A stretch of DNA of 60,880 bases. Source: a virus. Positions 1,471 through 59,748 of the stretch are shown one piece after another. The number at the start of each line of letters is the position of its first letter. The stretch's first letter is position 1. The position numbers and the translations under genes were made by a program. The notes under the pieces are model-generated. The model did not search any database. It was not told the origin of the DNA and was given only the letters and a program-made list of their open reading frames with translations. Where the stretch lies: positions 1-60,880 of IMG/VR virus record IMGVR_UViG_3300004154_000368. One strand, 5' to 3'.

Positions 1471-1490
1471 AAATATATATTACTAATATG
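1471..1490 (+). promoter_or_regulatory. Phage promoter motif (RAATATATATYAYnnnnnTG)
   Basis: The sequence AAATATATATTACTAATATG matches the 20-nt motif shared by eleven sites in the window. Its final TG, possibly the start site, is 60 nt before the GC-rich gene at 1551. Confidence 0.7.
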
Positions 1491-1550
1491 ATCTTGTATT
1501 TGAAATCGTTCTTAACCTTTTCTAACCTTTAACCTAAAGGAGTATTCCGC

Positions 1551-2036
1551 ATGGAATTTACTTGCAATGATCCGATCCGTGGTGACAAGATCGCCCAGCT
1601 CAGTGAGCGACTGGCCCTTGTACTCTACAAGCAGGAAGACGATGCCTATTTCCTCATTTCCGGCATCGTGATCGGCAAGGCTGTCCAGCTTCGCTATGAT
1701 GATGGGCCCGATGGCCATAATCGCATGTCGGTTAGTGTGGAGGATGATTCGATCATCCTCCATCGGTCCTCTGTCGAGTTTGAGGAATGTCGGCCCAATG
1801 TGAAAGGGGATAAGCGTCTGGCCAATATCCCCAAGCTGCTGCAGGGTACCACTGTCTGTGATCTCTTCGATGAGGTCGATCAGGCCGTGGCGGAATATGT
1901 TCCTTTGATCAAAAACTCCGTGTGTTATAACAACAGCCAGGCATATCCTTACCTTCGGCCCATGGGCTTTCGTCCGGATTATTCCCAGCAAATGGGCGGT
2001 GGTGGTTTTCAGCATCGGCCCACCAGGCGCGGATAG
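1551..2036 (+). CDS. GC-rich, probably abundant phage protein of unknown function
   Basis: 161 aa; start supported by AAAGGAG ten nt upstream. Composition is clearly GC-richer than its neighbours, with C/G in most third positions, the signature of the small highly expressed class in this genome. I recognise no domain. The N-terminal two thirds alternate beta-like and acidic segments, and the C-terminus is glycine/arginine rich (MGGGGFQHRPTRRG), suggesting a flexible basic tail. A motif-type promoter precedes it and a strong palindrome follows. A virion or very abundant role is inferred from composition and promoter alone. A long antisense frame over the same bases is taken as a codon-bias shadow. 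Confidence 0.65.
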   Translation: MEFTCNDPIRGDKIAQLSERLALVLYKQEDDAYFLISGIVIGKAVQLRYDDGPDGHNRMSVSVEDDSIILHRSSVEFEECRPNVKGDKRLANIPKLLQGTTVCDLFDEVDQAVAEYVPLIKNSVCYNNSQAYPYLRPMGFRPDYSQQMGGGGFQHRPTRRG

Positions 2037-2059
2037 ACCATCCATTTAGCCTGCATATC

Positions 2060-2090
2060 TGGAGCACACCCCATCATGGGGTGTGCTCCA
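2060..2090. terminator. Near-perfect palindrome between convergent genes
   Basis: TGGAGCACACCCCAT, one C, then the exact reverse complement: 15 nt per arm. It lies between the plus-strand gene ending at 2036 and the SbcC gene ending at 2114. No T-tract. Confidence 0.7.
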
Positions 2091-2113
2091 GTATACGGTA
2101 TCTATCTTCATTT

Positions 2114-4675: not shown

Positions 4676-4806
4676 CAGGGAACTCCTTTATATTGATCCA
4701 TATTATGGAAAGTTTTAGTATAAATAGACAATGTAACTAGATCCTTTTATGTATGGTTAAGATTGACGATACTATAGTCCTATCTACTTCAAAGGAGCAT
4801 ATCGCT

Positions 4807-5136: not shown

Positions 5137-5170
5137 TAGATAGGGATGGGCAAATGCCCATCCCTATCTA
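5137..5170 (+). terminator. 16-bp hairpin terminator candidate
   Basis: TAGATAGGGATGGGCA, loop AA, then the exact complement; begins at the base after the stop codon at 5136. A short T-rich stretch (ACTTTCTTCT) follows. Confidence 0.7.
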
Positions 5171-5256
5171 CTTTCTTCTGATATATAATTACTTATGATG
5201 ATAATTACATAGGTACTTCACTTACATACATCCTCCAACTTTATTGGAGCTGGCAT

Positions 5257-6090: not shown

Positions 6091-6110
6091 AAATATATAT
6101 TATTAAAATG
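6091..6110 (+). promoter_or_regulatory. Phage promoter motif
   Basis: AAATATATATTATTAAAATG matches the shared motif. The TG lies 169 nt before the GC-rich gene at 6280, leaving a long AT-rich leader with no gene in it. Confidence 0.65.
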
Positions 6111-6279: not shown

Positions 6280-6801
6280 ATGTCGAAGGAAAAAGTTGAA
6301 AAGAAAGCCGATGATACACTCATCGTCTCTGCCATGACCTTTCTTATGGACAAAGCTACCTTGGCCGGCGAAAACATCTACACCGTCAAGGGCTCCGACC
6401 TGGAGCGCTTTTACAAGGACAACGGCGTGCCCGTTGAGATCCAGCATCGCACCATGGCGCTCAACGACGCCGTCCTGGCTGCAGCTATCGATTTCAACGG
6501 TGAAAAGCTCAAGGCCCAGATCGAGGCTCTCAAGAAGAGCAATGAAGATCCCGAAGGCGCTGAGAATACCATCAAGCTGAACTACTCCGAAGCCACGACT
6601 GAAGTCAGCATGGTGCCCCATGTGGCTCGCAAGATCCCGACTCATCTGCCCGGCTGCGCCAATCGTGCTGATTCCGGCGATGGCATGTCTCACCACTACG
6701 GTGTCACCCAGGTCCGTATCCGCACCAAGGGCCGGGTCACCCGCCGTGACGAACAGCTCACCGATTGGGCTGATACGATCAAAGAAGCTCTCGGCGTCTA
6801 G
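6280..6801 (+). CDS. GC-rich, probably abundant phage protein, unknown
   Basis: 173 aa, start backed by GGAGGAG. Strong C/G third-position bias sets it apart from adjacent AT-rich genes. The N-terminal half is helical and lysine/glutamate rich; the second half holds HVARKIPTHLPGC and an RIRTKGRVTRRDEQL basic stretch. No family recognised. It forms a pair with the GC-rich gene at 6990; each has its own promoter motif and a hairpin separates them. This suggests independent strong expression. Basic segments could bind nucleic acid, which is speculation. Confidence 0.6.
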   Translation: MSKEKVEKKADDTLIVSAMTFLMDKATLAGENIYTVKGSDLERFYKDNGVPVEIQHRTMALNDAVLAAAIDFNGEKLKAQIEALKKSNEDPEGAENTIKLNYSEATTEVSMVPHVARKIPTHLPGCANRADSGDGMSHHYGVTQVRIRTKGRVTRRDEQLTDWADTIKEALGV

Positions 6802-6919: not shown

Positions 6920-6939
6920 AAATATATATCATAAAAATG
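6920..6939 (+). promoter_or_regulatory. Phage promoter motif
   Basis: AAATATATATCATAAAAATG, the CAT variant of the shared motif; TG is 50 nt before the start codon at 6990. Confidence 0.7.
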
Positions 6940-10948: not shown

Positions 10949-13255
10949 TTAAGGATTGGTGGGCAACGGAAGCGGAGTCTCCGTGGGGACCAGGGAGATC
11001 TTCGCGTACAGGTCGATCAGCTTGCTGATGTTGACCACGTTGAGGTAGATGCCGATCGGGTTGGTGATGAGCGGGAGCTCACGGGCGTTGGCAAAGACGC
11101 GCTTGTTGACGCCGCCACCGATCTGCGGGTTGTAGTGGGCAAGATAGGTACCGAAGTCCCAATTGTGCCCAAAGTTCAAGATAGATTCGGGATCACCTTC
11201 ACGGTACGGGAGGATGAGGATCTTTTCCCGCATGGTGTTGTAGGTGCACGAGACACACTCGAGGATGACGCCGTTGGGCAGGATCCGACGGTACTCGACG
11301 ACTTCACCATCGAAAGCCATGTTCGTATTCCCTTCCATGTGATTATGGATATGGGGAATATTAAACAGGTTTTCGAGGATGATGTTCGACGTGATCAGCT
11401 TGTAGACCGGCTTTTCGCCGCTATTGAGCTGCGTCTTGTAGTAGGAGTTCTGGTGGATCAAGCTGAAGATGTTGATCAGCTGGAGTTCCACGTACTGGCG
11501 GATATCGCCGAGGATATCCGAAGACCGGATGGAGTCGACGTTCGAGCAGTCGATGGTCGACACGATGACGTAGGGGTTGACCAGCTGCGAGGCCACGTAC
11601 TCGAAGCCGACCCGATCCTCGAAGGAGCGGAATTCCGGATTCGGATTCTCGGCCTTGATACGGTCATAGACCTGACGCAGGGTCGTGCTGACCAGCTTGA
11701 GCATACGATCGTCCTGGCCCAGGCTGATGGCCTCGGTGACGTTGCTCATGACATACTCAGGCAGGGCCTGCTGCAGAGCATAGTCGACGATGTAGTTACG
11801 ACCAACCGGGATTTCCCAGGTCTGGGTCTTGTAGTGCGAACGGACGGCCACGTTCGATTTCCGAAGGTTCTCTTCAGAGAACTTGGAGTCGAGCTTATAC
11901 GCGATGACTTCGGTCTTGATGTCGGCCATGACCGCAGCCACGGGCGCCGGGACAGCATCGCTATCCGGATGATACGCAGTCGGGTAGGCACTGCCGGTGC
12001 AACGGGTATCCGCCCACTGCAGAGACAGATAAGGAGACGCATCGATCATGCAGGTGATGGCTTCCCGCGGAGTGAGATTGGCAAAGATCTCGGTGTCGGT
12101 GCCGGCCATGGTCTTGAGGCTCTTGTCCAGCAGGAAGGTCTGGGTGAAGTTCGCCCGACGATCACCGGAGTAGCGGTTGTTGTTGTGCATGATCAGGCGG
12201 GAGCCGTAGTACGGCGAGGTGTCGAACTCGATGTCCTCGGTCTTGCCGCCAGAGATGAAGCGCACGACCACGGACTCGAGGATCGCACCATCAGCGATCA
12301 AGTCCGTGTAGTCGGTCATGGTAAAGCCGTAGACGTTGGGCAGGCGAGACAGGTCCATCATGTTGGCAGTCTTGCCGCAACGGATGTAGTTGTCCGCCAG
12401 CAGGACGTCGTCGTCGTCGTTGTCCTTCAGGACTTCGATACGCCGCAGGGTGTTGGAGACCATGGAGGGGTCGCCGTAGAGATGGATAAAGGGCTTGCGA
12501 TGTTCCTGGGACTGCCGTTCCTTGGAGGTGGGCGCCATGGACTTGTTGAGGTCATAGACTTCGGCCCAGGGGATCACGTAGTTGATCACGGTCTGGGGAG
12601 AGGTCCGACGATGCATCACACGGTTGATCAGCCCACGGTGGAACTTGAGCAACGTGACGGTCATGGCAATGCGGATGTCTGGCAGGACGCGGTCGGTATC
12701 GGCACCGAAGGCTTCCATACCCGGAGTGAACGAAGTCAAGAACTCGGCATGCAGCGATTCCGGGATGACCTGATGCAGATCCAGCAGATTCTGCTTCTGA
12801 TCCGGAAGCGTATCGCTGGTAGCGAAGTGTCGAGACTGCGCCATAGCGCCATTGCCACGGTTGTTGTAGAGCAGCTGGCCAAGTGCCGGGATAGCCATGG
12901 CCTTGATGCGATCATTTTTCAGATCGCAGGAATCGCACAGCACGCCCAGGCTTTCCGGGCTCATGAAGGCGTCGGTGAACGACATCGTGCTGTTGAAGGC
13001 TTCACAGGAAGCGGTGACCTGACCAAAGGCTTCAGCATTGACCAGGCTATCAGAGACCGGGCTGCCGCCGTTGCCGAGGTTGTTCATGTTGATGAAGTCG
13101 GTGACGTTCTTCCAGATCTTGGTGATGAGCTTGCGTTCAGCAGCAGAGACATGGCCACTGTTATTTTTGGCATATCCCATGGATTCACAGGCAGCCAGAA
13201 AACCCTGGTAACCAGCGAGATCACCTGAAGCAGAAGGCATATTGTTGTTAAACAT
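10949..13255 (-). CDS. Probable major capsid protein (GC-rich, very large)
   Basis: 768 aa from the ATG at 13255, chosen because GGGAG lies ten nt upstream as in the other GC-rich genes; a TTG at 13294 in the same frame lacks such a site. This is the longest of the GC-rich, presumably most highly expressed genes. The length is close to the roughly 750-aa capsid proteins of phiKZ-type phages. The sequence is a mixed alpha/beta chain with no enzymatic motif. Segments such as YGFTMTDYTDLIADGAILES and a long C-terminal helical/beta region would fit a capsid fold. The assignment rests on length, composition and context; a tail sheath is the main alternative. A 763-aa antisense frame is a codon-bias shadow. 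Confidence 0.5.
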   Translation of the reverse strand: MFNNNMPSASGDLAGYQGFLAACESMGYAKNNSGHVSAAERKLITKIWKNVTDFINMNNLGNGGSPVSDSLVNAEAFGQVTASCEAFNSTMSFTDAFMSPESLGVLCDSCDLKNDRIKAMAIPALGQLLYNNRGNGAMAQSRHFATSDTLPDQKQNLLDLHQVIPESLHAEFLTSFTPGMEAFGADTDRVLPDIRIAMTVTLLKFHRGLINRVMHRRTSPQTVINYVIPWAEVYDLNKSMAPTSKERQSQEHRKPFIHLYGDPSMVSNTLRRIEVLKDNDDDDVLLADNYIRCGKTANMMDLSRLPNVYGFTMTDYTDLIADGAILESVVVRFISGGKTEDIEFDTSPYYGSRLIMHNNNRYSGDRRANFTQTFLLDKSLKTMAGTDTEIFANLTPREAITCMIDASPYLSLQWADTRCTGSAYPTAYHPDSDAVPAPVAAVMADIKTEVIAYKLDSKFSEENLRKSNVAVRSHYKTQTWEIPVGRNYIVDYALQQALPEYVMSNVTEAISLGQDDRMLKLVSTTLRQVYDRIKAENPNPEFRSFEDRVGFEYVASQLVNPYVIVSTIDCSNVDSIRSSDILGDIRQYVELQLINIFSLIHQNSYYKTQLNSGEKPVYKLITSNIILENLFNIPHIHNHMEGNTNMAFDGEVVEYRRILPNGVILECVSCTYNTMREKILILPYREGDPESILNFGHNWDFGTYLAHYNPQIGGGVNKRVFANARELPLITNPIGIYLNVVNISKLIDLYAKISLVPTETPLPLPTNP

Positions 13256-13397
13256 GGACGTGGCACTCCCATTAGGTGTGGTAGTAGGTGTCAAAACACG
13301 CTAGGTGAGTTGGGGCGTGTTGAAACAGAACAATATAGATCTTTAGACCTATAAGATAGAACCCATGTAATTGGACCTATATAATTAAGGTGTTATT

Positions 13398-19360: not shown

Positions 19361-19380
19361 GAATATATATTACTTTATTG
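19361..19380 (+). promoter_or_regulatory. Phage promoter motif
   Basis: GAATATATATTACTTTATTG, shared motif; TG is 66 nt before the GC-rich gene at 19447. Confidence 0.7.
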
Positions 19381-19446: not shown

Positions 19447-20619
19447 ATGTACAGTGCTAACTTTGCTACCCCTGCTGCTCGTGAAGAATCCAATGTCAAT
19501 ACCAACGCTGCTCGTGGACCCCGGTACAACATGCCTGCCATCGGCGCCCGTGCGGCCCTGGATTTCCTGAAGAAGCATTTCCAGGCCCTCAAAGAGGGCA
19601 CTGAAGATTTTATTCCGACGACGCCCGACGGCGAGTACACCATCGAGACGGCCCTGTCCGGCCATCGCTATGCCAACGGCCAGACCGGCATGTGGGAGTG
19701 TGGTGGCAGCATGGGAGCCTACGGCGCCTGCAACGTCATTGCCGGCCCCGATGCCCAGCCGCTCAATCCCTTGCACCAGCACCATGTCAACCCCGAGCAT
19801 GCCTGCGACAAGCATGTGCTCCTGCCCGTCAAGGAAGGATATATCATGGCGCATGCTGCCTTCGCTGAAGGCAACGTCCTGATCACCGCTTGGCGCTGCG
19901 AGACCCTGGCCTTTGATGCCGGTGACAACCCGGAACGTGGCGGTGTCACCCGCGCCACCTTCAAGCTCATCTATGCGGCCGACGGCATCGATGCCTTGCC
20001 CCTCTTCCTCGCCGAGGAAGAAGAAGCGACCCCCGACAACCAGATGTTCCAGGCCTTTCTCAAGGCGGCGTGGACCAAGGCCAACATGTTCCGCTGCCAG
20101 TCCCAGGTGTGGGCCTATCCCTGGGCGCCCTGGATCGTCAAGAAGGGGGGTCGTGAGTGGGACCTGCCTGAAATCGTGGCTGCCCAGGAAGGCATCATCG
20201 AAGCCCTGACCGGCGTCGGCCTCTCCGACCCCGATCCCAAATCGGTCGTCACCGACTACAACACCATGGTCGCCGAAATCGAAGATGCGGCGTCCAAGGC
20301 CATCTACAAGTTCCGCAACGCCAGCAGCAACCCCCGTGGACCCCGTGTCCATGTCCTGCAGTACTTTACGCAGGAAGAAAACAGCTCGAAAGTGCGCGTG
20401 ACCAACTTCGTGCTGCTGCACAACATCAAGACCCCGAAGATCTTGGCCACCAGGATCTACTACGCGGATCCCAACACCACCATGCAAAGCGAGCGCCCCG
20501 AACCGGCCTACTACCTCAACAATCGCCGGTTCATGCGCTGGGATCTCATCAAGTCCAAATTCGCGGACGAGGCCACCGGCGGCGAATGCAAGTTCGTCTA
20601 CGAGTACACCGGCTGCTAG
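19447..20619 (+). CDS. Strongly GC-rich abundant protein, unknown
   Basis: 390 aa from ATG 19447, with TAAGGAG ten nt upstream; the frame is open from 19378 but without a ribosome binding site. This is the most GC-biased gene in the window. The chain is rich in Trp, Cys and His (for example HQHHVNPEHACDKHVLLP; MWECGGSMGAYGACN), and such residues are spread evenly, suggesting a compact folded protein. No enzymatic motif or known family is recognised. Own promoter and own hairpin make it a single-gene unit. A major structural or other very abundant role is inferred. The antisense 403-aa frame is a shadow. Confidence 0.6.
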   Translation: MYSANFATPAAREESNVNTNAARGPRYNMPAIGARAALDFLKKHFQALKEGTEDFIPTTPDGEYTIETALSGHRYANGQTGMWECGGSMGAYGACNVIAGPDAQPLNPLHQHHVNPEHACDKHVLLPVKEGYIMAHAAFAEGNVLITAWRCETLAFDAGDNPERGGVTRATFKLIYAADGIDALPLFLAEEEEATPDNQMFQAFLKAAWTKANMFRCQSQVWAYPWAPWIVKKGGREWDLPEIVAAQEGIIEALTGVGLSDPDPKSVVTDYNTMVAEIEDAASKAIYKFRNASSNPRGPRVHVLQYFTQEENSSKVRVTNFVLLHNIKTPKILATRIYYADPNTTMQSERPEPAYYLNNRRFMRWDLIKSKFADEATGGECKFVYEYTGC

Positions 20620-20679: not shown

Positions 20680-20775
20680 CAATAAGGATCTTCTTTCTTT
20701 TTTTTTTATAAACACTTATCTGGAGAGATTCTCCATGTTATAGGTCATAACCTATTTTTATGGGAGTAAATGCAC

Positions 20776-21693
20776 ATGGTTTATCGAGGAAGTTTTTTTA
20801 TTGACCACAATATCTCCATTCCAAGAGATAGTGTTGTGTCAATGGAAGATATTAATAGTGTCATCAATAACCAACTCATCATACTCAATAATACTGATTT
20901 AGAAATTGCTAATGAAGGATTTTTACAAAATCTGTTTGTCGCTATAGCTGATACTATTTTTCACATTGGTAATAACTTTAAGACACTCTTTAAAATTTAT
21001 AGAGATTTTAAACGATCTGAATTAAGATATTATTTGGAATCTAATGTATTACGTACATCAATCTTATTATCTACTGACTTTAATATTATTAGAACATTGA
21101 TGATACCTATTCCAAGGGGCATGACTACTACTTATATAGAAGCATGTTGCGCAGTAGATGATTGTTTAAAACGTATGGATATGTTATCTAAAGCTGATCT
21201 TGCATTAGAATATTCAGATGTACTTTATGAACAATGTAGTAATGGTGACATTGATCATCTTGAGAAGAGTATCAAATCCAATTCAATACACTTTACCGAT
21301 AAAGAATTGAATAAATACTTTGATAAAGTCAACAAAGTTTTTGCTAATAAATCTACTGGAGAAGTGAAATTGAATAGTGTATATGCCAATATACAAGATA
21401 TCACCAGTGTGAATGAAAAACTCCTCAATATGGAAGATCATTTAATCAGCGTATCTAAAGTTTATTATAGATTAGAACACATCACTAATAAAATTGACCT
21501 CATTTTAAAAGAATTTAAAGAAAAACCTGAATTACAAAAAAGATTAACCAATAGTTTATTGATAAAATTAGGTGAATCCATTCGTAATGTAGCTGTAGTA
21601 TTTGAGAAATATGGTATCCTCATCAATGATGTCAATACTCTCACACACAATCAAGTAGAAGTACTTGAAAAGATCAGAAAATATGTCAAGTGA
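20776..21693 (+). CDS. Helical protein resembling internal head/prohead proteins
   Basis: 305 aa from the second ATG (20776), which has GGGAG at the usual distance; an ATG two codons earlier is possible. Early in the chain NTDLEIANEGFLQNLFVAI contains an (A/S)xE-G type junction, like the prohead-protease sites of myoviruses, followed by a helical domain. The rest is strongly helical with acidic and basic heptads. Many internal head proteins of large phages have this plan: short acidic propeptide, protease site, helical body. No direct family recognition, so the role is inference. Converges on 21727-22794 with a hairpin between them. Confidence 0.5.
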   Translation: MVYRGSFFIDHNISIPRDSVVSMEDINSVINNQLIILNNTDLEIANEGFLQNLFVAIADTIFHIGNNFKTLFKIYRDFKRSELRYYLESNVLRTSILLSTDFNIIRTLMIPIPRGMTTTYIEACCAVDDCLKRMDMLSKADLALEYSDVLYEQCSNGDIDHLEKSIKSNSIHFTDKELNKYFDKVNKVFANKSTGEVKLNSVYANIQDITSVNEKLLNMEDHLISVSKVYYRLEHITNKIDLILKEFKEKPELQKRLTNSLLIKLGESIRNVAVVFEKYGILINDVNTLTHNQVEVLEKIRKYVK

Positions 21694-33480: not shown

Positions 33481-33708
33481 TTATTGACTATCGGATTCGA
33501 AAGCAGTCTGACACTGGATACAACGTGTAGTGTGTGGTACAGCGATCACACGTTTAGCTGGGATGATCCCACCACAGTCTTCACAATACCTCTCACCATT
33601 GATATCTGTATATTTAATGGATTGAGATTTGAGCATGGCCTGATGTGCTTGTATACACATCTGATCATGATGACTCGACTGTTCATATGCCAAATCGCAT
33701 GCATCCAT
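33481..33708 (-). CDS. DksA/TraR-family C4 zinc finger protein
   Basis: 75 aa. C42, C45, C63 and C66 in YCEDCGGIIPAKRVIAVPHT and RCIQCQ give the diagnostic DksA/TraR finger with the PAxR spacer. TraR-type proteins of this length bind the secondary channel of bacterial RNA polymerase and mimic DksA/ppGpp. The N-terminal half is a short helix pair lacking the long DksA coiled coil, as in TraR. Because the phage also encodes its own polymerase beta', the target may be the host enzyme. Start has AAAGGAT upstream. Confidence 0.7.
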   Translation of the reverse strand: MDACDLAYEQSSHHDQMCIQAHQAMLKSQSIKYTDINGERYCEDCGGIIPAKRVIAVPHTTRCIQCQTAFESDSQ

Positions 33709-33792
33709 GTATGAGATCCTTTTGATGTCATATGGTGTAGTAAAAACCTATAAGATGCTTTAAAATCTACTCTTGTTTTTCATTAGATGTTG

Positions 33793-33812
33793 AAATATAT
33801 ATCATATTTTTG
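33793..33812 (+). promoter_or_regulatory. Phage promoter motif next to a ribosome binding site
   Basis: AAATATATATCATATTTTTG, shared motif; the closing TG runs into GGAGG of the gene at 33827. If the G is the start site, the 5' leader would be only about 15 nt. Confidence 0.6.
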
Positions 33813-33826: not shown

Positions 33827-34642
33827 ATGCATTTTCATCAGCCATACACACCTACCATACGTTTTGCTACAAGTTGTCCCAGCACATATAAATTCAATTT
33901 TAATATTGGGCTCATACGGAATCTTGAATTAGATTTTACATCACCAATATTTGTTAGTGTAGAATACAATGAAATACACACACTCTTACGATTTACATTT
34001 ACTAACGATATCACATCTATTCAACATGCAAATCGATCCACTGTCTTAAAGACGTGTATGGAAATACGTAATACATATGTATTTGATTGGCTCTTTTCTA
34101 CATTTACAAAAGATATGATACATAATCAAAGATACAAACTCCTTGCAGATGGAAAAAATATATTCATATTAAATATCAATAAAAATGATATACTATTATT
34201 TTTGGAATATGATAATTTAACTTGGACACATTTTAAATCAAATGCTAGCAATTTATCCAATGCTGTCATTTCGATACATGAAATCTCTACACGTACTGAT
34301 ATTAATACACCACATAATATTCGATTAGCCAATTGGACAAATGTTACTGCAAATATATTGGATCTCCCTATTCTAAAGAGTGCTACATTTGACTATGATA
34401 CTGATCTCAATAAATATGTCATTGTATTTAATAGAAAGTTTGATTATCACAAAATCAGATATGAACCTACACGTCAACAATACACTATGGGCATACCAGT
34501 ATTTATCTATGTTAAATTAAGGACACATTTTCATATCACTGATAAAAATAAGACACATAAATTTCATCTCATTAAACACCCCACACGTACAAATACTGCT
34601 ATTATAAATGCACATATTTTATCTAAAGCAGAATTGATCTAG
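33827..34642 (+). CDS. Hypothetical protein, 271 aa
   Basis: GGAGG lies 10 nt upstream. The sequence is beta-strand rich with many aromatic/His/Thr positions and a basic C-terminus. I recognise no family or catalytic motif. First gene of an operon running to 36495, behind a promoter motif. Function cannot be assigned. Confidence 0.5.
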   Translation: MHFHQPYTPTIRFATSCPSTYKFNFNIGLIRNLELDFTSPIFVSVEYNEIHTLLRFTFTNDITSIQHANRSTVLKTCMEIRNTYVFDWLFSTFTKDMIHNQRYKLLADGKNIFILNINKNDILLFLEYDNLTWTHFKSNASNLSNAVISIHEISTRTDINTPHNIRLANWTNVTANILDLPILKSATFDYDTDLNKYVIVFNRKFDYHKIRYEPTRQQYTMGIPVFIYVKLRTHFHITDKNKTHKFHLIKHPTRTNTAIINAHILSKAELI

Positions 34643-39792: not shown

Positions 39793-39812
39793 AAATATAT
39801 ATCATTTAAATG
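39793..39812 (+). promoter_or_regulatory. Phage promoter motif
   Basis: AAATATATATCATTTAAATG, shared motif; TG is 53 nt before the GTG start at 39866. Confidence 0.7.
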
Positions 39813-39865: not shown

Positions 39866-40042
39866 GTGCCCCATTATCTCAATGATCGTATGATCCGGTT
39901 GCAGGCCATCTTTGAAACCATCAACTCCCAGTTCGAGGAACAGCAGAAGCAAGGAATGACTTACATCCCCACCTTGCCCGGCATGGGTGATCATGAGGCG
40001 GCTTACCGTCTCCTTAACGGCAGGGGCATCGCCTGTCAGTGA
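39866..40042 (+). CDS. Small GC-rich protein with GTG start, unknown
   Basis: 58 aa, too short and with too weak a start codon for simple gene finding. GTG at 39866 has AAGGAG nine nt upstream; the frame reads MPHYLNDRMIRLQAIFETIN onward and ends ...LLNGRGIACQ. Third positions are C/G rich, like the other GC-rich genes. It also has its own promoter motif and a perfect palindrome after it. The evidence that it is a real, strongly expressed gene is therefore its signals and composition. Function unknown; a small head or tail component is possible. Confidence 0.6.
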   Translation: MPHYLNDRMIRLQAIFETINSQFEEQQKQGMTYIPTLPGMGDHEAAYRLLNGRGIACQ

Positions 40043-40078: not shown

Positions 40079-40154
40079 CACATCAGTGGTCTTTATATTT
40101 TTTGTATATGATCCATAAAAACGATCTTATAGTCTTTTATCTTGGAGGAATATC

Positions 40155-40613
40155 ATGGCTAAGACACAATATGTAGATATAGTTGATCATATTAATAAAT
40201 ATCCATATAGAGTATTAGCACCTGCCAAATATACACCTATAGCCGATTATGATAAACTTTTTAATTTTGATCCACTCTATCAACCAACTGATCCTGATAT
40301 GGTCTGTACTCATGCACTCACTATAGTCAATCTCATTGACATGCATGCTAACAATATAGAATTTAGAGTAGTGAAAAATGAAGATGTATTTGATATTTAT
40401 CATAAACTTTATTCATATATGGAGATACTCCATAGCAATAGAAAAAGAAATGTAGATCAAGAAGTCTTCTATCAAAAGGCTATGACATTTTTACAACTCT
40501 GTGCTAAGAAATGTAGATTAGCACATAAGCGACTTGATTTAGATAGAGAAGTAAAACCTGGTACATTATCAGCAGTTCTTACTAAGATTAATAGAGCACT
40601 TCAAGGGAGGTAA
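40155..40613 (+). CDS. Small protein upstream of the hub-like gene, unknown
   Basis: 152 aa; TTGGAGG upstream. Helical C-terminal two thirds with several Cys and basic residues (LQLCAKKCRLAHKRLDLDRE). No family recognised. It ends six nt before the hub-like gene at 40620, so they share a unit. Confidence 0.55.
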   Translation: MAKTQYVDIVDHINKYPYRVLAPAKYTPIADYDKLFNFDPLYQPTDPDMVCTHALTIVNLIDMHANNIEFRVVKNEDVFDIYHKLYSYMEILHSNRKRNVDQEVFYQKAMTFLQLCAKKCRLAHKRLDLDREVKPGTLSAVLTKINRALQGR

Positions 40614-42296: not shown

Positions 42297-42314
42297 TAAA
42301 TCAATAAATACTCA

Positions 42315-42331
42315 AGCATATATTATTTATG
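42315..42331 (+). promoter_or_regulatory. Weak variant of the promoter motif
   Basis: AGCATATATTATTTATG has the TATATTAT core but shorter spacing to TG than the eleven strict sites. Upstream of the gene at 42381. Confidence 0.35.
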
Positions 42332-42380
42332 AGCTAGAGTGTATCACAAATGAATAAATCCCATTAGGAGGAAAGATCAG

Positions 42381-42701
42381 ATGGTAGTAGATCTGCAAGA
42401 AGAAGTGATCATGGATAGTATCATCAATGATGCTAAAACCATTTCTAATGAAACAATGAATTTGGTAAATAACACTAAACTTCTCATGGATCAAGTGGTG
42501 AGTTTGCGTGAACTTATCTTTATGTATTTTGAAGCTAAAGATTGGTATGATCAGGTACTTGGTGGTTTAGAACATTATCATTTGGATACTCAGGATACAC
42601 GTGATAGTTTTGATTTGATCTTTGAAAATGCCACTCAAGAATATTACAGTGCTTGTACTCTTCTTCGTAGACTTGGTGTCATCACCCAGGAGGATATGTA
42701 A
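42381..42701 (+). CDS. Small helical protein, unknown
   Basis: 106 aa; AGGAGG upstream. All-helical, acidic composition, no recognised family. The stop is followed after one base by the ATG of the kinase-like gene, so these are co-translated. Confidence 0.55.
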   Translation: MVVDLQEEVIMDSIINDAKTISNETMNLVNNTKLLMDQVVSLRELIFMYFEAKDWYDQVLGGLEHYHLDTQDTRDSFDLIFENATQEYYSACTLLRRLGVITQEDM

Positions 42702-44525: not shown

Positions 44526-45686
44526 TTACCCGTTATATATTTTTTCATGTAAAGATAAGATACGTATCTCGATATAATCTCTGAGTTCATGGTGTTTACA
44601 GTTTGTCCAGGGTCTATTGTTTTTAAGCCTATTGATGATACGTTTGTATTCCACTAAGATAGTTTTAAATAAAGTATTTTTAGGATTTAGTTTTAAAATA
44701 TTAAAAATGAGTTCAAAGATATCAATCTCTTTTAAGATAGTGAGAAACATATATGGTCGTTTATGATCAGTATACCAACGTGTTTGACTGGATATCAAGA
44801 GATCTCTCAATGATCCGGAAAATAATAGATCCGTATTGAGAAGATTAATAGCTCTTGTATTATTGTGTTTAATGAGATCGAATTCTTTAAATAAAGATAG
44901 CATTCCATCGGTGTAAGTAGTAGTTATCTTACCATATTGATTTTCTACTTCTATTTCATCATAAGTCCTAGTAGATACAGTATCTAATGTATCAATATTG
45001 ATCAACCATCGTAATTGTTTCATGAGCCAAATATTGGTGAGATCTGATTGAAAAGTATTATAAATGAAATTCTTATAAAAGAATAAATTAGCTGAAGTGA
45101 TATCTGGATATTGCATTATACCTTCTTTCTTAAATTTATACCATTTAAATATTAATGCTATTGGATCAATCAAAAATATACATTGACTGGGTAATTGGTC
45201 ATAAAAACGTATCCTACTTCCATTGAGATTAAGACTGAATTCATCACTATCATGCCACCAGACTTTCATGACAGATATGTCTTTCCAAATATCCCATCCA
45301 CTATTAAATGGTAAATATTGTAACGTATCAAGATCTTCATTCGATATGACAAATTCTTTTGTATAGCTCCCAGAGATATAATAGCGTCTAAAGATACTGC
45401 CTGTGTGGGTAGTGTCATATTTACTTATAAGTTCATTTCTTAAATCTGATATATAAAACATATATCGATCTACATCATTGGAGAATTTATTCATGTATTT
45501 CAAATCTACCATATGACAAAGAATATCGAGTAATCGCATACCATGTGGATAACTATTACTGTTACCATTTAAGTATTGATTGGTTTTATTGTTAGTATAG
45601 ATTCTCATTCGTTCAAGGTAGTATTTATATTTAGGTATGGACCTTGGTGCACCTGGAGGAATATGATCTAAGAGATAATTCAGCAC
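44526..45686 (-). CDS. Hypothetical protein, GTG start
   Basis: 386 aa. GTG at 45686 has AAGGAG eight nt before it; an ATG just upstream is in another frame and stops after two codons. Rich in aromatics and basic residues, beta and alpha mixed. No family recognised. It is a lone minus-strand gene between plus-strand units. Confidence 0.55.
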   Translation of the reverse strand: MLNYLLDHIPPGAPRSIPKYKYYLERMRIYTNNKTNQYLNGNSNSYPHGMRLLDILCHMVDLKYMNKFSNDVDRYMFYISDLRNELISKYDTTHTGSIFRRYYISGSYTKEFVISNEDLDTLQYLPFNSGWDIWKDISVMKVWWHDSDEFSLNLNGSRIRFYDQLPSQCIFLIDPIALIFKWYKFKKEGIMQYPDITSANLFFYKNFIYNTFQSDLTNIWLMKQLRWLINIDTLDTVSTRTYDEIEVENQYGKITTTYTDGMLSLFKEFDLIKHNNTRAINLLNTDLLFSGSLRDLLISSQTRWYTDHKRPYMFLTILKEIDIFELIFNILKLNPKNTLFKTILVEYKRIINRLKNNRPWTNCKHHELRDYIEIRILSLHEKIYNG

Positions 45687-45766
45687 ATGAAATTCTCCTT
45701 ATATTGTCATACTTTTAAACTATAGGATTGTAAAAACTTATAGGGTCTAATATCCAAAATAACTTG

Positions 45767-45786
45767 AGATATATATTATCATAGTG
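45767..45786 (+). promoter_or_regulatory. Phage promoter motif
   Basis: AGATATATATTATCATAGTG, shared motif; TG is 120 nt before the start codon at 45907. The leader contains CCTCCATGGAGG (45887-45898), which overlaps the ribosome binding site and could pair with itself. Confidence 0.65.
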
Positions 45787-45906: not shown

Positions 45907-47658
45907 ATGGCTCTTACCACTTCGACGACTGGTTCGACTGCTCCCAATGCTCAACCGCAGGGTGCACCCACCATGCAGCCCACTGCATCAGCTGCTACCG
46001 CTACTGCAGTGTCACCTGATCCGACCATGATCACCACCCCCATCAATACCACTACGGCTCCTCGTCCGGAAGAGGGTGCTATTCCCAATAAGAAAGATCG
46101 CGGCAATATCCGTGACTTGCTCCATAAAGCCCCTATCCCGATGGCCATGAGTGAAGGTGCTACCAAGTACATTGAAGGTCTTAAGAAGTACTACGCTGAA
46201 CATCAAAATATCGAATACCGAAATATCCGTGTCAATGCTCTGGCCCAGTTGCCCGGCGTCTTCATGGTTGAATACAATGATCGTGTGGCTCCTCTGATCA
46301 TGCATGAGATGGTCGGCAGCATGATTGCAGACAACTCTCCTGACACCGTCGTCATGCGTCAGGCTGCCCAGGTCTATGCCCAGTACGTTCGGGGAAACAT
46401 CGAAGCTCGGTTTACGCTGCTGCCGGCTGTGGTAATTCATCCTTCGGATTACCACAAGGTCGAGATCATGGGCAGCATCTTGTCCAACACCCTGTCCAAT
46501 ATCTCCGGACAGGAGTCTATCAATTCAGCAGTTCTCAAAAATGAACCGTTGATCATCTCGATCAACCAGTCGGAAGTCATGCCGTTCATTGATCGGCTGT
46601 CTCCGCATGGCATCCCTGGTCGGCACGACATCGGCTTCAAGCTGAGCCTGGCTCCCCAGAACATGAACTACCAGTCCCGCAACGAGATGTTCGGCAACTG
46701 GAAAAATGAGATCGAGGATATCGCCGCTGTCACGGCATATACCGAGATTATCACTGGTCCGATTGATCCCATGACTGGTATCCCCAAGTTCGTCCCGGTG
46801 GTTCATATCACCGACGTTCTGTCGCGTATCCAGGATATCAGGATGTACGTTATCCTGGTTTCCCTGGCTGCCGAGATCTTCATTCGTCAGGGCCTCTGGG
46901 AACACCAGTTCGCCCGTTTTAACAAGGATGAGCCCAACCTTGGATATCTGGTCAATGACCCCAATACCAAGGACCTCATGTTCATCGATAGTGCTCCGGC
47001 ACTCAAGAGCTTCATCTATACCTACATGACTCCTCCGGTCCTGGTCGTCGACACCCTGGACGGACGGTCACGTATCCCGGATACCGAGTTGACGGTCCTC
47101 TCGGCATCTGCGGATCTCAATGCCTACAAGCGGCAGGTCCTGACTAACTGCTTCAAAGAGCTCTGCACCACGTTGAGCCTTGATCAGGCCAATGCTCTGG
47201 TGCCATTCCAGCCGTATTCTTACGAGAATACCGGATTGGCTTCCATCGGCGGCAGTCTCACGGACACTCGCGAGATCGACTACCTGCGTCTGGCTACCAA
47301 CTGGAAGTCTGAAGTCGGCACCGCAGCCCTGCTCATGCAGCGTGCAGCTGGTGCCAAGCCGTCAGATCGTTTCGATCTGCAGAAGCGCTTCTACAGCGAT
47401 GCTGTGGCGCTTTACAACAACAACATCATCCGTGTCGATCTGTCTTCCATCGCTGCCATCCAGTCCGAGATCAGCCGTAACATCACGTTGGATCGTACGT
47501 CCTGGTCTCCCAGCATGGCCAACATCGACCTCACCGGCGCCATCGACGATACCCGCAAGTTCCTCAGTGGAGCTGGCAGTCTGGGTGTCAATGGCGGAGC
47601 CTTCGTCAATATGTCGACCATGTCCATCTATGGTGGGCCTGGTTACTACGGTCGTTAG
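45907..47658 (+). CDS. GC-rich abundant protein, 583 aa; structural candidate
   Basis: ATG 45907 with GGAGGAG upstream. The first 60 residues are Thr/Pro/Ala-rich and disordered; the rest is a folded alpha/beta chain with many Asn/Ile, ending in a glycine-rich tail (GGPGYYGR). GC-rich, C/G third positions, own promoter and hairpin, next to RNA polymerase beta'. No family recognised. Candidates by length and abundance include tail sheath or other virion protein, or the nuclear-shell protein that nucleus-forming phages make in large amounts; none can be supported from motifs. A 15-nt direct repeat straddles its stop codon. Confidence 0.55.
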   Translation: MALTTSTTGSTAPNAQPQGAPTMQPTASAATATAVSPDPTMITTPINTTTAPRPEEGAIPNKKDRGNIRDLLHKAPIPMAMSEGATKYIEGLKKYYAEHQNIEYRNIRVNALAQLPGVFMVEYNDRVAPLIMHEMVGSMIADNSPDTVVMRQAAQVYAQYVRGNIEARFTLLPAVVIHPSDYHKVEIMGSILSNTLSNISGQESINSAVLKNEPLIISINQSEVMPFIDRLSPHGIPGRHDIGFKLSLAPQNMNYQSRNEMFGNWKNEIEDIAAVTAYTEIITGPIDPMTGIPKFVPVVHITDVLSRIQDIRMYVILVSLAAEIFIRQGLWEHQFARFNKDEPNLGYLVNDPNTKDLMFIDSAPALKSFIYTYMTPPVLVVDTLDGRSRIPDTELTVLSASADLNAYKRQVLTNCFKELCTTLSLDQANALVPFQPYSYENTGLASIGGSLTDTREIDYLRLATNWKSEVGTAALLMQRAAGAKPSDRFDLQKRFYSDAVALYNNNIIRVDLSSIAAIQSEISRNITLDRTSWSPSMANIDLTGAIDDTRKFLSGAGSLGVNGGAFVNMSTMSIYGGPGYYGR

Positions 47659-47767: not shown

Positions 47768-47787
47768 AAATATATATCATAATGTTG
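47768..47787 (+). promoter_or_regulatory. Phage promoter motif
   Basis: AAATATATATCATAATGTTG, shared motif; TG is 47 nt before the RNA polymerase beta' gene start. Confidence 0.7.
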
Positions 47788-47834: not shown

Positions 47835-49427
47835 TTGACAGTACCACATTATGCAGATATAAGCAAGGTACCTAGTATTTATCATCATCTTAATCTTACT
47901 GAATTTGATCTAGATCCTCATGATGGTATCATGGATCGGATTCTTGATCTTGCACGTATTCTCACTCCTATTGATTTTGAAAAACTATTTCAACAATCGC
48001 ATAATGCGGGGATTATCAATCAGGGTCATCTGGTGGTAAAAAAGTTATCTGATGAATTCACTCGTGGTATCTTTGCTGAATCAGATCAAGATGTACCATA
48101 TCAACCACACTGTGAATGTAAAAAATTAAAAGGTCAGATGCACATAAATATGGTATGCCCCATTTGTAATACTAAAGTTTCCAATGAGTTTGTAGATCAT
48201 TTATCACATGTAGCATGGTTGGGTATCCCCGATGGGCTTCCAAAAATGTTACATCCCGTTTGGTATCTAGTACTTAGAGATTGGCTTGGTGGTAAGAAAG
48301 GTGAATCATCTATCATTGATGCTATCTTAAATCCAGAATTGGAACTACCTAAAGATCTTAAAGCTATCATCCCTGAACAAAGTTATATGTATTTTTATAA
48401 TCATGCTGATGAAATTATGCAGGTATTGATGAATTTATATGAACCAACTAAACGAAAGAAATATACACCATGGATTAAACGAATGTATCATGAATTTAAA
48501 GATATCATGTTTACCTCTAAGTTTCCAATTTTACACAATAGTTTACATCCATTTATGTCTGGTAGTTCCACATTAAAATATGTAGATAAACCTTGTAAAG
48601 AGATCCTCAATGCTATCTTTGATCTTTCTGCTATTACATTTAGTTATCATACTCAATGGAAAGATAGATTGCTTACTGAAAAGAGAAAGAAAGAAATCAA
48701 TAAAACACTTTATGATATTTACCGTAATGTTGTTGCATATTACATTGTGTTGATCAATGAGAAAGTTGGTAAGAAATCAGCTATCATGCGTAAACATAAT
48801 TTTGGTACTCGAATGCATTTCACTATCAGATCAGTCGTAGTACCAATTACGGGTGCACATGATCCAGATGAAATTTATTTACCTTGGAAGTGTATAGTCA
48901 ATGCCTATAAGTTGGAAATAATCGGAAGATTGGTAGATGATTATGGAATAGAAGCACCAAAAGCATATGTAAAACATCTTAATGCACTAGTGCATTATGA
49001 TCCAATGATCCATGATATCATGCTCAAATTGATGAAGGAATGTCCATTTAAAGGTCTTCCTTTTCTCATAGGTAGAAATCCCACATTACGTTTATTTTCT
49101 ATCATGCAATTGTTTTGTACTAAAATCAAAACAGATCTTCATGATCAGACTATTTCAATTTCTCCTCTGATCCTTAAAGGAAGTAATACTGATTTTGATG
49201 GTGATGAATTAAATGGTGTCAATATCAAAGAAATGGCAGGTGTAATAGATATGGATACTATGCATCCAAGAGAAGCAGTACTGGATACGAATTCACCAAA
49301 TGTATCCACATTGGTCATGCCATCAAATCAAGCATTACAAAATGCACACAGATTTGTACATCAAAATCCAGATATTGGTTATATCATTATGGGTGGTGGA
49401 AATACAGTCGGAGGTATGGCAGCATGA
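47835..49427 (+). CDS. RNA polymerase beta' N-terminal subunit (split, phage multisubunit type)
   Basis: 530 aa; TTG start at 47835 with AGGAGGTC upstream. Residues 93-117 carry the beta' zinc site, CECKKL followed by CPICNTK. About 320-345 holds KKSAIMRKHNFGTRMHFTIR, the counterpart of the bacterial KxGxFRxxLxGKRVxxSxRS block. FLIGRNPTLRLFSIMQLF corresponds to LNRAPTLHRLSIQAF. SNTDFDGDELNG (about 449-460) is the catalytic NADFDGD loop that binds Mg. The chain stops about 70 residues later, so the trigger-loop half must be a separate gene. phiKZ-type phages split beta and beta' in this way, in both virion and non-virion polymerases. This gene cannot say which set it belongs to. Confidence 0.9.
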   Translation: MTVPHYADISKVPSIYHHLNLTEFDLDPHDGIMDRILDLARILTPIDFEKLFQQSHNAGIINQGHLVVKKLSDEFTRGIFAESDQDVPYQPHCECKKLKGQMHINMVCPICNTKVSNEFVDHLSHVAWLGIPDGLPKMLHPVWYLVLRDWLGGKKGESSIIDAILNPELELPKDLKAIIPEQSYMYFYNHADEIMQVLMNLYEPTKRKKYTPWIKRMYHEFKDIMFTSKFPILHNSLHPFMSGSSTLKYVDKPCKEILNAIFDLSAITFSYHTQWKDRLLTEKRKKEINKTLYDIYRNVVAYYIVLINEKVGKKSAIMRKHNFGTRMHFTIRSVVVPITGAHDPDEIYLPWKCIVNAYKLEIIGRLVDDYGIEAPKAYVKHLNALVHYDPMIHDIMLKLMKECPFKGLPFLIGRNPTLRLFSIMQLFCTKIKTDLHDQTISISPLILKGSNTDFDGDELNGVNIKEMAGVIDMDTMHPREAVLDTNSPNVSTLVMPSNQALQNAHRFVHQNPDIGYIIMGGGNTVGGMAA

Positions 49428-55626: not shown

Positions 55627-55640
55627 TCATAGATCGGATG

Positions 55641-55667: not shown

Positions 55668-55691
55668 TGTACTGTGTTTCATCATGAGAAT

Positions 55692-55711
55692 AAATATATA
55701 TTACATTTATG
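55692..55711 (+). promoter_or_regulatory. Phage promoter motif
   Basis: AAATATATATTACATTTATG, shared motif; TG is 46 nt before the start codon at 55758. Confidence 0.7.
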
Positions 55712-55757
55712 ATGTGACTTGGATAAATGTCTATTTTAAACAGGAGGATGATGTGTG

Positions 55758-56780: not shown

Positions 56781-56784
56781 TGTA

Positions 56785-56822
56785 GGATGCATACGGGAGC
56801 TCTAGAGCTCCCGTATGCATCC
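56785..56822 (+). terminator. 38-nt perfect palindrome
   Basis: GGATGCATACGGGAGCTCT followed by exact complement with CTCTAGAG at the centre. A second 38-nt perfect palindrome like that at 43555. Confidence 0.7.
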
Positions 56823-56833
56823 ATCATGGTTGA

Positions 56834-56853
56834 AAGTATATATTATTTTTTTG
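56834..56853 (+). promoter_or_regulatory. Phage promoter motif (G variant)
   Basis: AAGTATATATTATTTTTTTG, one change in the core, same spacing to TG; 73 nt before the start codon at 56927. Confidence 0.6.
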
Positions 56854-56926
56854 TAGACCCAATGATATATGGAAAAAAATAAATATCCATGTTACTATGT
56901 AATGAACTTAGGGAGGATATCACTTT

Positions 56927-58600
56927 ATGCAATTCGTTCGTCGCGACAACGAATTTGGTTTATCTTGCATTTATTTGGATATGGAAGGTATTGAGCTTGG
57001 TATTCGAGATGTATATAAACCAGGATTTCATTCACTCACTGAAGATGAGTTTTTAAAATTGGCAGAGACTAGTGAACCATTTAAGATGTTTCGGGTAGAT
57101 ACTTATAATGTACTCAAACCCACCAATAGTTCATTTAATTGGGATTGTGTTTTTGGACCTGTTAATCATTTTCTTAAATCTATGACCAATGATGAATGTC
57201 GTACAATTGCAGAGACACTTATCTCTGTCCATCATGATATTGTTTCTGAGATGCAATATGGTGCTAGCTTATCAAGTAATTTAATTGAGATCACTAAGAG
57301 TTTAGCTAATCAGTTGGATTGTATGGAACGTGAACTTAATCTTTGTGAAAGATTGGAAGTTTATGTAAACAATCCACTCAATATGGATATTCCATTATTT
57401 GAAAATGCAGGTAAACGTGCTCAAGATAAAGCAGATATGACTTTTCATAGACCTGAAGTAGTATTACTCACTGCTATCACAGTTCTTAATAAATTATTAT
57501 CTCCCGTACTTGGTGTGTTTATTGAACATTGTAAAAAACAGTTAGACAATAGTTTAAAAGAACTCCATTGTGTAAATATGATTATGCCCATTTTGTATAG
57601 AAAATATCCAGACTTAGTACCAAAACTTAAATGGTATATCAGAAATATTATTAAACCAAATGTGAAGAATACTGTAGAATATGTGGCAAATGGATTTACG
57701 TTAGAATTAGAATCACAAAAGAGTTTTGCTAATATCTTAGTAAGAAAATTAGTCAGTGTCAATTTGTTTAAAGAAGGTGGAAATTTAATGACTTATATCA
57801 CAGCATCTATTAAAGAGTCTACTCGTACACCTACATTTATGTCAGTTACAAGAAATGCAATCAAAGAAATGGATAATCCTACTGAGAGTAGTAGTTCACC
57901 CTCTAGTGAAGAAGGTAATACTTCAGCGTTAGAATATGGATCTCGTTGTTCTGATCATACTGTGGATTTTCCAGTACTTACAAGTTTAGCTGCAAAATCA
58001 CTTATTAAAAATATCATCAATGAAGAAGAAATTGATCCTGAACTTTTTGAAGAGTGTTTAGCATACTATCGAATAAATCTTATCACTATGACACCCATCA
58101 ATTTATATTTGTTAGCTACGACATATGGATATAGCTTAGGTGGTGCTAAATCTATCTGGGCACTTAACATGAAAGAGATAATTGAACTTGTCACAGTATT
58201 TCAATTCCAGTGTTTGAAACGTGGGTATCATGCTCTTATTCCAGCAGTATCTTTAGGTGAAGCTACCCATTTGGGATTACCACCAATCAAATCTATTCAG
58301 ACCCAATTTGATAGTCAACTAAAGACTGCATGGAATGCTTCATTCGAATATAAAAACTGTAAAGCAAGATTTAATACAATAATCAGTACTTTAGAATGGG
58401 ACACAGTAGTTAAAGAAATAGTAGAATTTCTTATTAATAATAATAAAGCTATTAATCTCCCATTTTATTTCTTAGAACAACTAAAGATTGATCATCTTAA
58501 TCAAAAAGAATATCAGTATCCTGAAATTATTATCAAAACCATTTGTGGATATACATTGGATGTTACAACAGGCATCTATGAAGGAGCAATTGAAGCATGA
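56927..58600 (+). CDS. Large helical protein, unknown
   Basis: 557 aa; GGGAGG upstream. Mostly helical; residues about 325-340 form a Ser/Pro/Glu-rich disordered loop (NPTESSSSPSSEEGNTSALE). No catalytic motif or family recognised. It overlaps the next gene by ATGA, so the two are coupled, likely virion or assembly proteins. Confidence 0.5.
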   Translation: MQFVRRDNEFGLSCIYLDMEGIELGIRDVYKPGFHSLTEDEFLKLAETSEPFKMFRVDTYNVLKPTNSSFNWDCVFGPVNHFLKSMTNDECRTIAETLISVHHDIVSEMQYGASLSSNLIEITKSLANQLDCMERELNLCERLEVYVNNPLNMDIPLFENAGKRAQDKADMTFHRPEVVLLTAITVLNKLLSPVLGVFIEHCKKQLDNSLKELHCVNMIMPILYRKYPDLVPKLKWYIRNIIKPNVKNTVEYVANGFTLELESQKSFANILVRKLVSVNLFKEGGNLMTYITASIKESTRTPTFMSVTRNAIKEMDNPTESSSSPSSEEGNTSALEYGSRCSDHTVDFPVLTSLAAKSLIKNIINEEEIDPELFEECLAYYRINLITMTPINLYLLATTYGYSLGGAKSIWALNMKEIIELVTVFQFQCLKRGYHALIPAVSLGEATHLGLPPIKSIQTQFDSQLKTAWNASFEYKNCKARFNTIISTLEWDTVVKEIVEFLINNNKAINLPFYFLEQLKIDHLNQKEYQYPEIIIKTICGYTLDVTTGIYEGAIEA

Positions 58601-59748
58601 TCATAGCCATTAAACCCAGTTCTTTTGAACCATGTATAAAATTTGTAGATAGTAGTACTACAAGAGTAATTCGTGGTACCCATTGTGGTGAAAGTTATTA
58701 TGGTATTGGTGGATATTTTCATGTCTCTGATAAAATCCAGAAATATAGAATCACTGAATATCATCAAGGTGTTTATATTGAAAGATATTTTGTTGGTCCT
58801 AAGGGATACTTATTTCATCCAAAATGGAGATCTGATAAATTGCTTTGTCAGATTATGATAAAGACCGTTGATCCCAGAGTAAACATTTATCGGGGTGATA
58901 TTACCCATGTACTCATTGATAGACGTGGTATTGAAAAGTGTTTAAAGCTTTATAATGATTTATCTGTCAATACAAAGTTTCTCAGTAATATCTTTTATAA
59001 ATGTGTAAAAGCTGAATGTGAAAATGATGCCTATTTAGGAGAAGCTTTTGATGATGCAGAATGTAGTATAGATCAATATCAACAACTTAGTTGGGTATTA
59101 TCTAAACATTTAAATCATGGTAGAGAATTTATTCCACATTATCAACCTGAAGACATTATGAATATATTACTTACAGATTTTCAAAGTATACAGCGTGGAT
59201 ATATACCTACAAGACAATTGTTATATTCAGTGGAAGATCTTTTTGTACCAGATGGGAGTCTTACATTTCCCAATAGATTCAGTGCACAAATACTCAAAAA
59301 TCCAGGTACATCACAAGATGAAATCATGTCACATGTCGGTGGTGAAATAGGGAGAGATAGTGTATGTACAGATGATGTAGAATTTATGGATTTAGCAAAA
59401 TATAGATATAAAATTAAACCAATCACCTATTATAATGAGGCTATCATGGATCTAATTGATGTGTGTAGTACTATGGTCTATAGTGATCTTTATTTCGAAT
59501 ATATATCATTAAAATGTGGTAATATAAAATCTACTGTAAGATATGCTGGTGTAATATTAGATTCAGTTTATTCAAATGATATATTGAGAAATATAGCTAC
59601 CATTATCATAGATGATCTCATGCCTACCATTGGTGAGTTTAAGTTTTATAAAACATATGATCAAGAGATCTATATTGAAGCTAACAATGAACTTATTGTA
59701 ATAGACATGGTTTTAGGTAATATTATTTCTTTAGCACTACATAGGTAA
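58597..59748 (+). CDS. Hypothetical protein coupled to the previous gene
   Basis: 383 aa; ATG inside ATGA overlapping the previous stop. Alpha/beta chain, several Cys and His. No family recognised. Inside it lies a perfect copy of the promoter motif (59497-59516). Confidence 0.5.
   Translation: MIIAIKPSSFEPCIKFVDSSTTRVIRGTHCGESYYGIGGYFHVSDKIQKYRITEYHQGVYIERYFVGPKGYLFHPKWRSDKLLCQIMIKTVDPRVNIYRGDITHVLIDRRGIEKCLKLYNDLSVNTKFLSNIFYKCVKAECENDAYLGEAFDDAECSIDQYQQLSWVLSKHLNHGREFIPHYQPEDIMNILLTDFQSIQRGYIPTRQLLYSVEDLFVPDGSLTFPNRFSAQILKNPGTSQDEIMSHVGGEIGRDSVCTDDVEFMDLAKYRYKIKPITYYNEAIMDLIDVCSTMVYSDLYFEYISLKCGNIKSTVRYAGVILDSVYSNDILRNIATIIIDDLMPTIGEFKFYKTYDQEIYIEANNELIVIDMVLGNIISLALHR
59497..59516 (+). 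promoter_or_regulatory. Promoter motif inside a coding region
   Basis: GAATATATATCATTAAAATG matches all constrained positions although it lies in the 58597 gene. TG is 287 nt before the start at 59804, so it could drive that gene separately. Confidence 0.45.

Follow-up and report, generated by a model that had tools for sequence, protein, structure and literature searches.

Probable early promoters of a virion RNA polymerase in a chimallin-encoding giant phage related to phiKZ

Which polymerase reads the AT-rich element that recurs along one strand of the viral DNA in IMG/VR record IMGVR_UViG_3300004154_000368 (positions 1 to 60,880; this whole stretch of 60,880 nt is called the window)? The initial annotation had noted eleven plus-strand copies of the consensus RAATATATATYAYnnnnnTG and had taken them for one class of promoters read by a phage polymerase; comparative evidence supports this assignment and sharpens it. 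The sites are very probably the early promoters of a phiKZ-related giant phage, read by the injected, multisubunit virion RNA polymerase (vRNAP). The element appears to be of an ordinary, well-conserved kind in an unusual phage: an early vRNAP promoter of the AR9 type, with the G of the TG as putative +1.

Over all of its 60,880 bases, the window agrees without a difference with a segment (127,631-188,510) of a larger virus record, IMGVR_UViG_3300004151_000006 (286,688 bp), so that the motif could be searched for across the full genome. All eleven coordinates proved to be correct (Table 1): nine window sites match the consensus exactly and two, at 45767 and 56834, with one mismatch each, while the minus strand has no exact match, either in the window or in the whole record. 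By chance, 0.00 exact matches are expected in the window (maximum 0 in 100 dinucleotide-preserving shuffles), and the pattern in reversed form has none; with two mismatches tolerated, 16 matches were found against 5.93 expected, two of the 16 on the minus strand. Since the pattern was derived from the same window, the remainder of the genome is the fairer test; it contains 14 of the 23 exact sites in the record, all on the plus strand. A refined matrix finds 47 plus sites and one minus site above 13 bits in the whole genome, compared with 2 and 0 in the reversed sequence; in a genome of 65% A+T that is covered by genes to about 92%, 45 of these 48 sites are intergenic and 41 lie at most 250 nt from a same-strand start. 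Other look-alikes, for example at 4449 and 40750, fall within genes. The genes were called by a simple hexamer caller that missed several short or GC-rich ones; three sites that seem distant from any gene (g85445, g85753 and g88882) are followed by uncalled open frames, two clear and one short as judged by eye. Ten of the window sites had been placed 14-169 nt upstream of a start codon, in agreement within one base with the 15-170 nt measured here; Shine-Dalgarno-like sequence was found at the start codons behind ten of the eleven putative +1 positions.

The early promoter of phage AR9, defined by mapped transcription start sites, reads AAATATATATTAT-(6N)-G, with the start at that G (PMC5312081). 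The pattern AATATATATYAYN6G has 29 matches in the present genome, 22 in AR9, two in phiR1-37 and none in ten other phages; within the first 100 kb of AR9, to which the feature comparison was restricted, all seven pattern matches coincide with deposited "early promoter" features. The element matches the AR9 early promoter more closely than TATATTAC of phiKZ. Because the mapped AR9 start is the corresponding G, transcription probably begins at the G of the fixed TG; the suggestion that the TG marks the start is in this respect supported, with the G rather than the T as the likely first nucleotide. Starts in phiKZ and phiR1-37 are likewise said to fall 6 nt past their elements (PMC5312081). The sites share with the vRNAP promoter class an extended AT-rich element centred near -10 (as defined in PMC7598289), a G conserved, by sequence, six nucleotides past the element, and a distribution of tens of copies upstream of operons, early by orthology, that include genes of the non-virion RNA polymerase (nvRNAP).

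In 45 aligned sites of at least 16 bits, no variation is seen at -15 to -10, at -8 (always A) or at +1 (always G), partly as a consequence of matrix selection; T occupies -1 in 39 and A occupies +2 in 33 of them. An upstream box with the consensus YCAW, at -32 to -29, lies outside the site-finding columns; one of the strings TCAT, TCCA, TTCA and CTCA is present between -33 and -28 at 41 of the 47 plus sites, compared with 6.3% of genome positions, and the box is present at ten of the eleven window sites. As a caveat, the early-site matrices were seeded with core-N5-TG, which determines that part of the logo by construction; the spacing was retested with cores chosen irrespective of TG. Among 59 such intergenic TATATYAY cores, TG follows after exactly five bases in 34, and in at most nine at any other count from one to ten. 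Five is also the commonest count in eight named phages used for comparison, 201phi2-1 (26 of 33 cores), PhiPA3 (26/31), phiKZ (27/43), phiR1-37 (38/62), AR9 (24/66), Goslar (8/9), OBP (4/9) and FLC9 (5/17), and in a sister contig described below (9/33); cores are few in OBP, Goslar and FLC9. The predicted consensus for OBP, N1M2 and 201phi2-1 has an identical core-to-TG spacing (PMC7058600, Table 2). Given its occurrence across these phages, the fixed TG is a family trait and not new.

A virion polymerase entering with the phage DNA would recognise approximately 33 bp, comprising the YCAW box (about -32 to -29), a short stretch of T (-23 to -20) and RAATATATATYAY (-19 to -7), and would then start RNA at the G six nucleotides past the element (T-1 G+1); a contact with the YCAW box is suggested by the conservation of the box. 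Most of the genes transcribed in this way would be orphans, with the nuclear shell protein and nvRNAP subunits alongside them, and this second polymerase would take over later. Directly upstream of the early sites (-75 to -25), a perfect GC-rich hairpin occurs at 24 of 47 sites, compared with 0.4 in shuffled sequence; these hairpins fit terminators of the preceding genes, as if insulating each early unit.

Both polymerase sets are encoded in the genome, the vRNAP by homologs of phiKZ gp80, gp149, gp178 and gp180, and the nvRNAP by homologs of gp55, gp68, gp71 and gp74, the subunits covered by the homolog search. A group I intron (RF00028, 64.5 bits; genome 233862-234182) splits the gp178-type gene in two parts. 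Among the 43 first genes behind the genome sites, 34 have no phmmer match in the eight phages, although two of these, the homologs of chimallin and gp68, could be linked to relatives by profiles; nvRNAP subunits are among the first genes with matches. A one-strand bias beyond gene orientation, examined for starts with a gap of at least 50 nt, was found in this genome (p = 4e-5), 201phi2-1, phiKZ, phiR1-37 and PhiPA3, and was not seen in the same test in OBP (0.052), AR9, Goslar and FLC9; strand placement may therefore largely reflect which genes are early.

The initial annotation had further assigned the motif to six of seven GC-rich genes, which is accurate for the window, where the major head protein gene is the exception, but weaker genome-wide. 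After a few gene calls were corrected by hand, 10 of 26 genes with a GC content of at least 0.45 were found to be first after an early site, as were 36 of the 279 genes below that value (Fisher p = 0.002). Genes of lower GC content thus make up 36 of these 46 first genes, and the description of the sites as strong promoters of GC-rich genes holds only in part. The GC-rich minority (10949-13294 on the minus strand, 19447-20619 and 45907-47658 on the plus strand, and others) includes capsid and shell genes; in this AT-rich genome, it perhaps reflects codon usage for high expression. A GC-rich gene of the MYG1/UPF0160 family (PF03690, E 1.9e-66; genome 89255-90136, plus strand) was overlooked by the gene caller.

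A scan for the extended promoter returned five stretches: two belong to this genome, one to the sister contig IMGVR_UViG_3300043028_000007 (150,238 bp), and two to other contigs, where the search covered the motif and a single polymerase family. On the sister contig, 52 genes of this genome have a match, and in 40 of the 40 matches listed the sister score exceeds the best of the eight named phages. The sister carries 23 early sites, 20 of them on one strand, with a core that is mostly AAATATATATTAC or -TAT. When the 20 majority-strand sites are used, the 52 ortholog pairs include five with an early site in both genomes, one with a site only here, one with a site only in the sister, and 45 with neither (p = 1.4e-5). 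The shared pairs include the chimallin homolog, the gp68 homolog, the gene at window 59804 and a phiKZ gp71-type subunit; the sister sites lie 126 nt before the open frame of the chimallin-homolog ortholog and 145 nt before that of the 59804 ortholog, and AAATATATATTAC stands just before the gp68-homolog ortholog. These placements support the intragenic site at 59497 and the one-mismatch sites at 45767 and 56834.

For the chimallin homolog itself, a profile of six chimallins matched the pair of window protein and sister ortholog with an hhalign probability of 91.9 (E 7e-7, 306 columns), whereas 28 control families reached a probability of at most 1.4. The comparison with one sequence was suggestive (E 0.02, probability 2.3), and the match became convincing because the sister ortholog was added. 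Chimallin was not found by sequence in Pfam, PDB sequence search or PHROGs, and a single-sequence structure model of the candidate has a pLDDT of 31. On the evidence of profile and synteny, the phage encodes a chimallin homolog, a character of the nucleus-forming Chimalliviridae. A tree of ten concatenated core proteins (4,014 columns; unrooted, nine taxa, sister contig omitted) places the phage on the branch that joins AR9 and phiR1-37 to six chimalliviruses, and the splits to either side of it are fully supported; the phage falls outside the six sampled members of the family, on the branch towards AR9/phiR1-37. The phage belongs to a deep, little-known branch of phages with a nuclear-shell gene, and it is possible that the AR9-type core is ancestral.

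Several observations weigh against early vRNAP promoters. The identity of the reading polymerase, the early timing and the G as +1 are carried over from AR9 and phiKZ, and for this phage timing and start rest on that analogy. The site at 59497 is intragenic and lacks the YCAW box; the gp55-type gene has an early site here (47768) and none before its sister ortholog; and the final TG is retained in nine of the 20 majority-strand sister sites. Agreement of early status between orthologs does not reach significance in any of the eight named phages when first genes alone are counted; at the operon level it is significant in seven of the eight, phiR1-37 being the exception (uncorrected for multiple tests). 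In AR9, a predicted promoter that deviates at one base gave no start, and its gene was late (PMC5312081); accordingly, imperfect sites, 45767 and 56834 among them, may have little or no activity.

Promoters of the middle or late class, read by the nvRNAP, would have one feature in common with the sites, as phiKZ late promoters likewise end in T-1 G+1 (TATG, PMC4666361). Such an assignment is nevertheless very unlikely: the sites precede nvRNAP subunit genes, which presumably could not depend initially on their own product, and the capsid and tail-sheath homolog genes carry a different motif, on both strands. Slightly less probable again are sigma-70-type promoters, in which the host RNA polymerase would recognise TATAAT-like -10 boxes; the AT-rich core is centred near -12, about where a -10 box is expected, but the 45 aligned sites show no TTGACA-like -35 signal and have YCAW at -32 to -29 instead, the 13-nt element with its fixed gap to TG exceeds the length of a -10 box, and the element equals the AR9 vRNAP promoter. 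Chance AT-rich sequence or an unrelated intergenic repeat (a binding site, origin or packaging signal), for which base composition and the TA-repeat core might speak, is hardly credible in view of the shuffles, the restriction of exact sites to the plus strand, the TG peak at five bases in ten genomes and the conservation before orthologous genes.

Besides these early vRNAP promoters, the genome contains a second recurrent intergenic motif, CATSNTATAG, which occurs on both strands and may serve the non-virion polymerase as a middle or late promoter. The exact string TCTTATAG is intergenic in 12 of 12 occurrences in the genome, on both strands, and 11 of these lie at most 200 nt before a same-strand gene; it ranks seventh among 57,440 8-mers (strands paired). 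As it was first picked from upstream regions, the intergenic count depends in part on that choice. Behind the extended set lie the major head protein gene, the tail-sheath gene and two virion-polymerase genes, but also a DNA polymerase gene, genes of unknown function and one early gene. A matrix for this motif, which is circular in being trained on intergenic upstream sites, gives 31 matches above 13 bits, hardly more than the 19 in reversed sequence. The sister contig has no intergenic preference for TCTTATAG (2 intergenic, 16 genic), and the failure of the sister to share the motif lowers the odds of the wider reading given below.

Published late and middle motifs include TATG (PMC4666361), AACA-N6-TR and AAanTTACc. 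The phiKZ-type TATG is not enriched here (90 vs. 87.9 in shuffled sequence), in a test that was positive in FLC9 and PhiPA3; nor is the AR9-type late AACA-(6N)-TR (5 vs. 7.3 shuffled), for which the controls gave 68 vs. 10.6 in AR9 and 46 vs. 7.5 in phiR1-37, and in this late promoter the genome does not resemble AR9-type uracil-DNA phages. The string CTTATAG was not found in the papers listed by a search of the phiKZ-type phage literature, in which few subscription journals were covered. A tblastn search of the phage collection with the major head protein as query gave no match. Tentatively, and with somewhat more speaking for other explanations, a deep chimallin-encoding clade may keep an AR9-type early promoter almost only on one strand, and the nvRNAP of the window phage may read a promoter unlike both known late types, CATSNTATAG(TY), on both strands before capsid, tail-sheath and virion-polymerase genes. 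If this is true, the early promoter would be the conserved part of the family programme, and the late promoter would change even between sister phages.

Table 1. Putative promoter sites and associated genes in the window (window coordinates; +1 positions are predicted).
Feature	Position	Strand	Putative +1	Remarks
Early promoter, core and TG	1471..1490	+	G 1490	exact; before gene 1551-2036 (ATG, Shine-Dalgarno)
Early promoter	6091..6110	+	6110	exact; before gene 6280-6801
Early promoter	6920..6939	+	6939	exact; called start 6849 is upstream of +1, so the gene start was moved to 6990 (464 aa)
Early promoter	19361..19380	+	19380	exact; before gene 19447-20619
Early promoter	33793..33812	+	33812	exact; leader 15 nt; gene 33827-34642
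Early promoter	39793..39812	+	39812	exact; before gene 39866-40042 (GTG)
Early promoter	45767..45786	+	45786	one mismatch; before chimallin homolog gene
Early promoter	47768..47787	+	47787	exact; before polymerase subunit gene
Early promoter	55692..55711	+	55711	exact; gene 55755 (GTG) or 55758 (ATG) to 56780
Early promoter	56834..56853	+	56853	one mismatch; before gp68 homolog
Early promoter, intragenic	59497..59516	+	59516	exact; inside gene 58597-59748; 287 nt before gene 59804
Weak candidate early site, intergenic	42314..42333	+		12.0 bits; before gene 42381-42701; absent from earlier list
Candidate second-class core TCTTATAG	13349..13356	-		62 nt before major head protein gene
Candidate second-class core TGTTATAG	20736..20743	+		before gene 20776-21693
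Candidate second-class core TCTTATAG	33748..33755	-		before gene 33481-33708
Candidate second-class core TCTTATAG	40125..40132	+		before gene 40155-40613
Candidate second-class core TCCTATAG	45720..45727	-		before gene 44526-45686
Major head protein gene	10949-13294	-		name rests on phrog_3231, E 1.8e-15
Chimallin (nuclear shell protein) homolog	45907..47658	+		583 aa, GC-rich; synteny with phiKZ gp54-gp55 and profile match
phiKZ gp55-type RNA polymerase subunit (non-virion set)	47835..49427	+		phrog_2987, E 2.3e-82; best phiKZ match gp55
phiKZ gp68 homolog, sigma-like fifth nvRNAP subunit	56927..58600	+		phrog_3209, E 8.9e-16; phiKZ gp68 in same family

Elsewhere in the genome (90191-92221, minus strand), a methyl-accepting chemotaxis protein of 676 aa is encoded, with a four-helix sensor, HAMP, PAS and MCP signalling domains; a phage-encoded protein of this type could alter host motility signalling.

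According to a 2020 review, purification of a vRNAP from this group had not been achieved by that time (PMC7598289), and promoter sets are consequently the source of what is known about recognition. The bases under constraint are marked by a divergent phage that has the AR9 element and spacing, together with a sister phage whose sites lie upstream of several orthologous genes. The presumed early genes, most of which (34 of 43, as above) lack a sequence match in the eight relatives, are candidates for host-takeover factors, and the chimallin-encoding phages are extended to a branch near their split from AR9-type phages. The present analysis adds the YCAW box, the deep placement of the phage, with AR9-type phages to one side and six chimalliviruses to the other, and the candidate second promoter class.

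Among known systems, phiR1-37, in which 56 promoters were confirmed by RNA-seq (PMC4848604) and the matrix finds 53 plus and 6 minus sites, resembles the window phage in its A-T-rich element and spacing, but has only the two exact matches to the AR9-type core. The phages phiKZ, 201phi2-1, PhiPA3, OBP, Goslar and FLC9 share with the window phage a TTT near -23, TATATTAY, TG after five bases, and nearly one-strand placement (plus/minus sites by matrix: 33/1, 32/0, 32/3, 27/1, 1/15 and 2/19, respectively); in contrast to the window phage, the upstream box is ATTnAAA-like in most of them, and they contain no exact match to its longer AR9-type core. In phiKZ, as in the window phage, the motif precedes chimallin (gp54) and gp68, the latter by 27 nt (motif at 57985-57998). 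AR9 differs in using both strands (28/11, compared with 47/1 here), in a logo without the YCAW box, and in having no counterpart to the variability of the 11th and 13th element bases (YAY) of the window phage; yet AR9 and the window phage have in common the 13-nt element, the distance to the G, the T before the G in many copies, and the tens of copies per genome.

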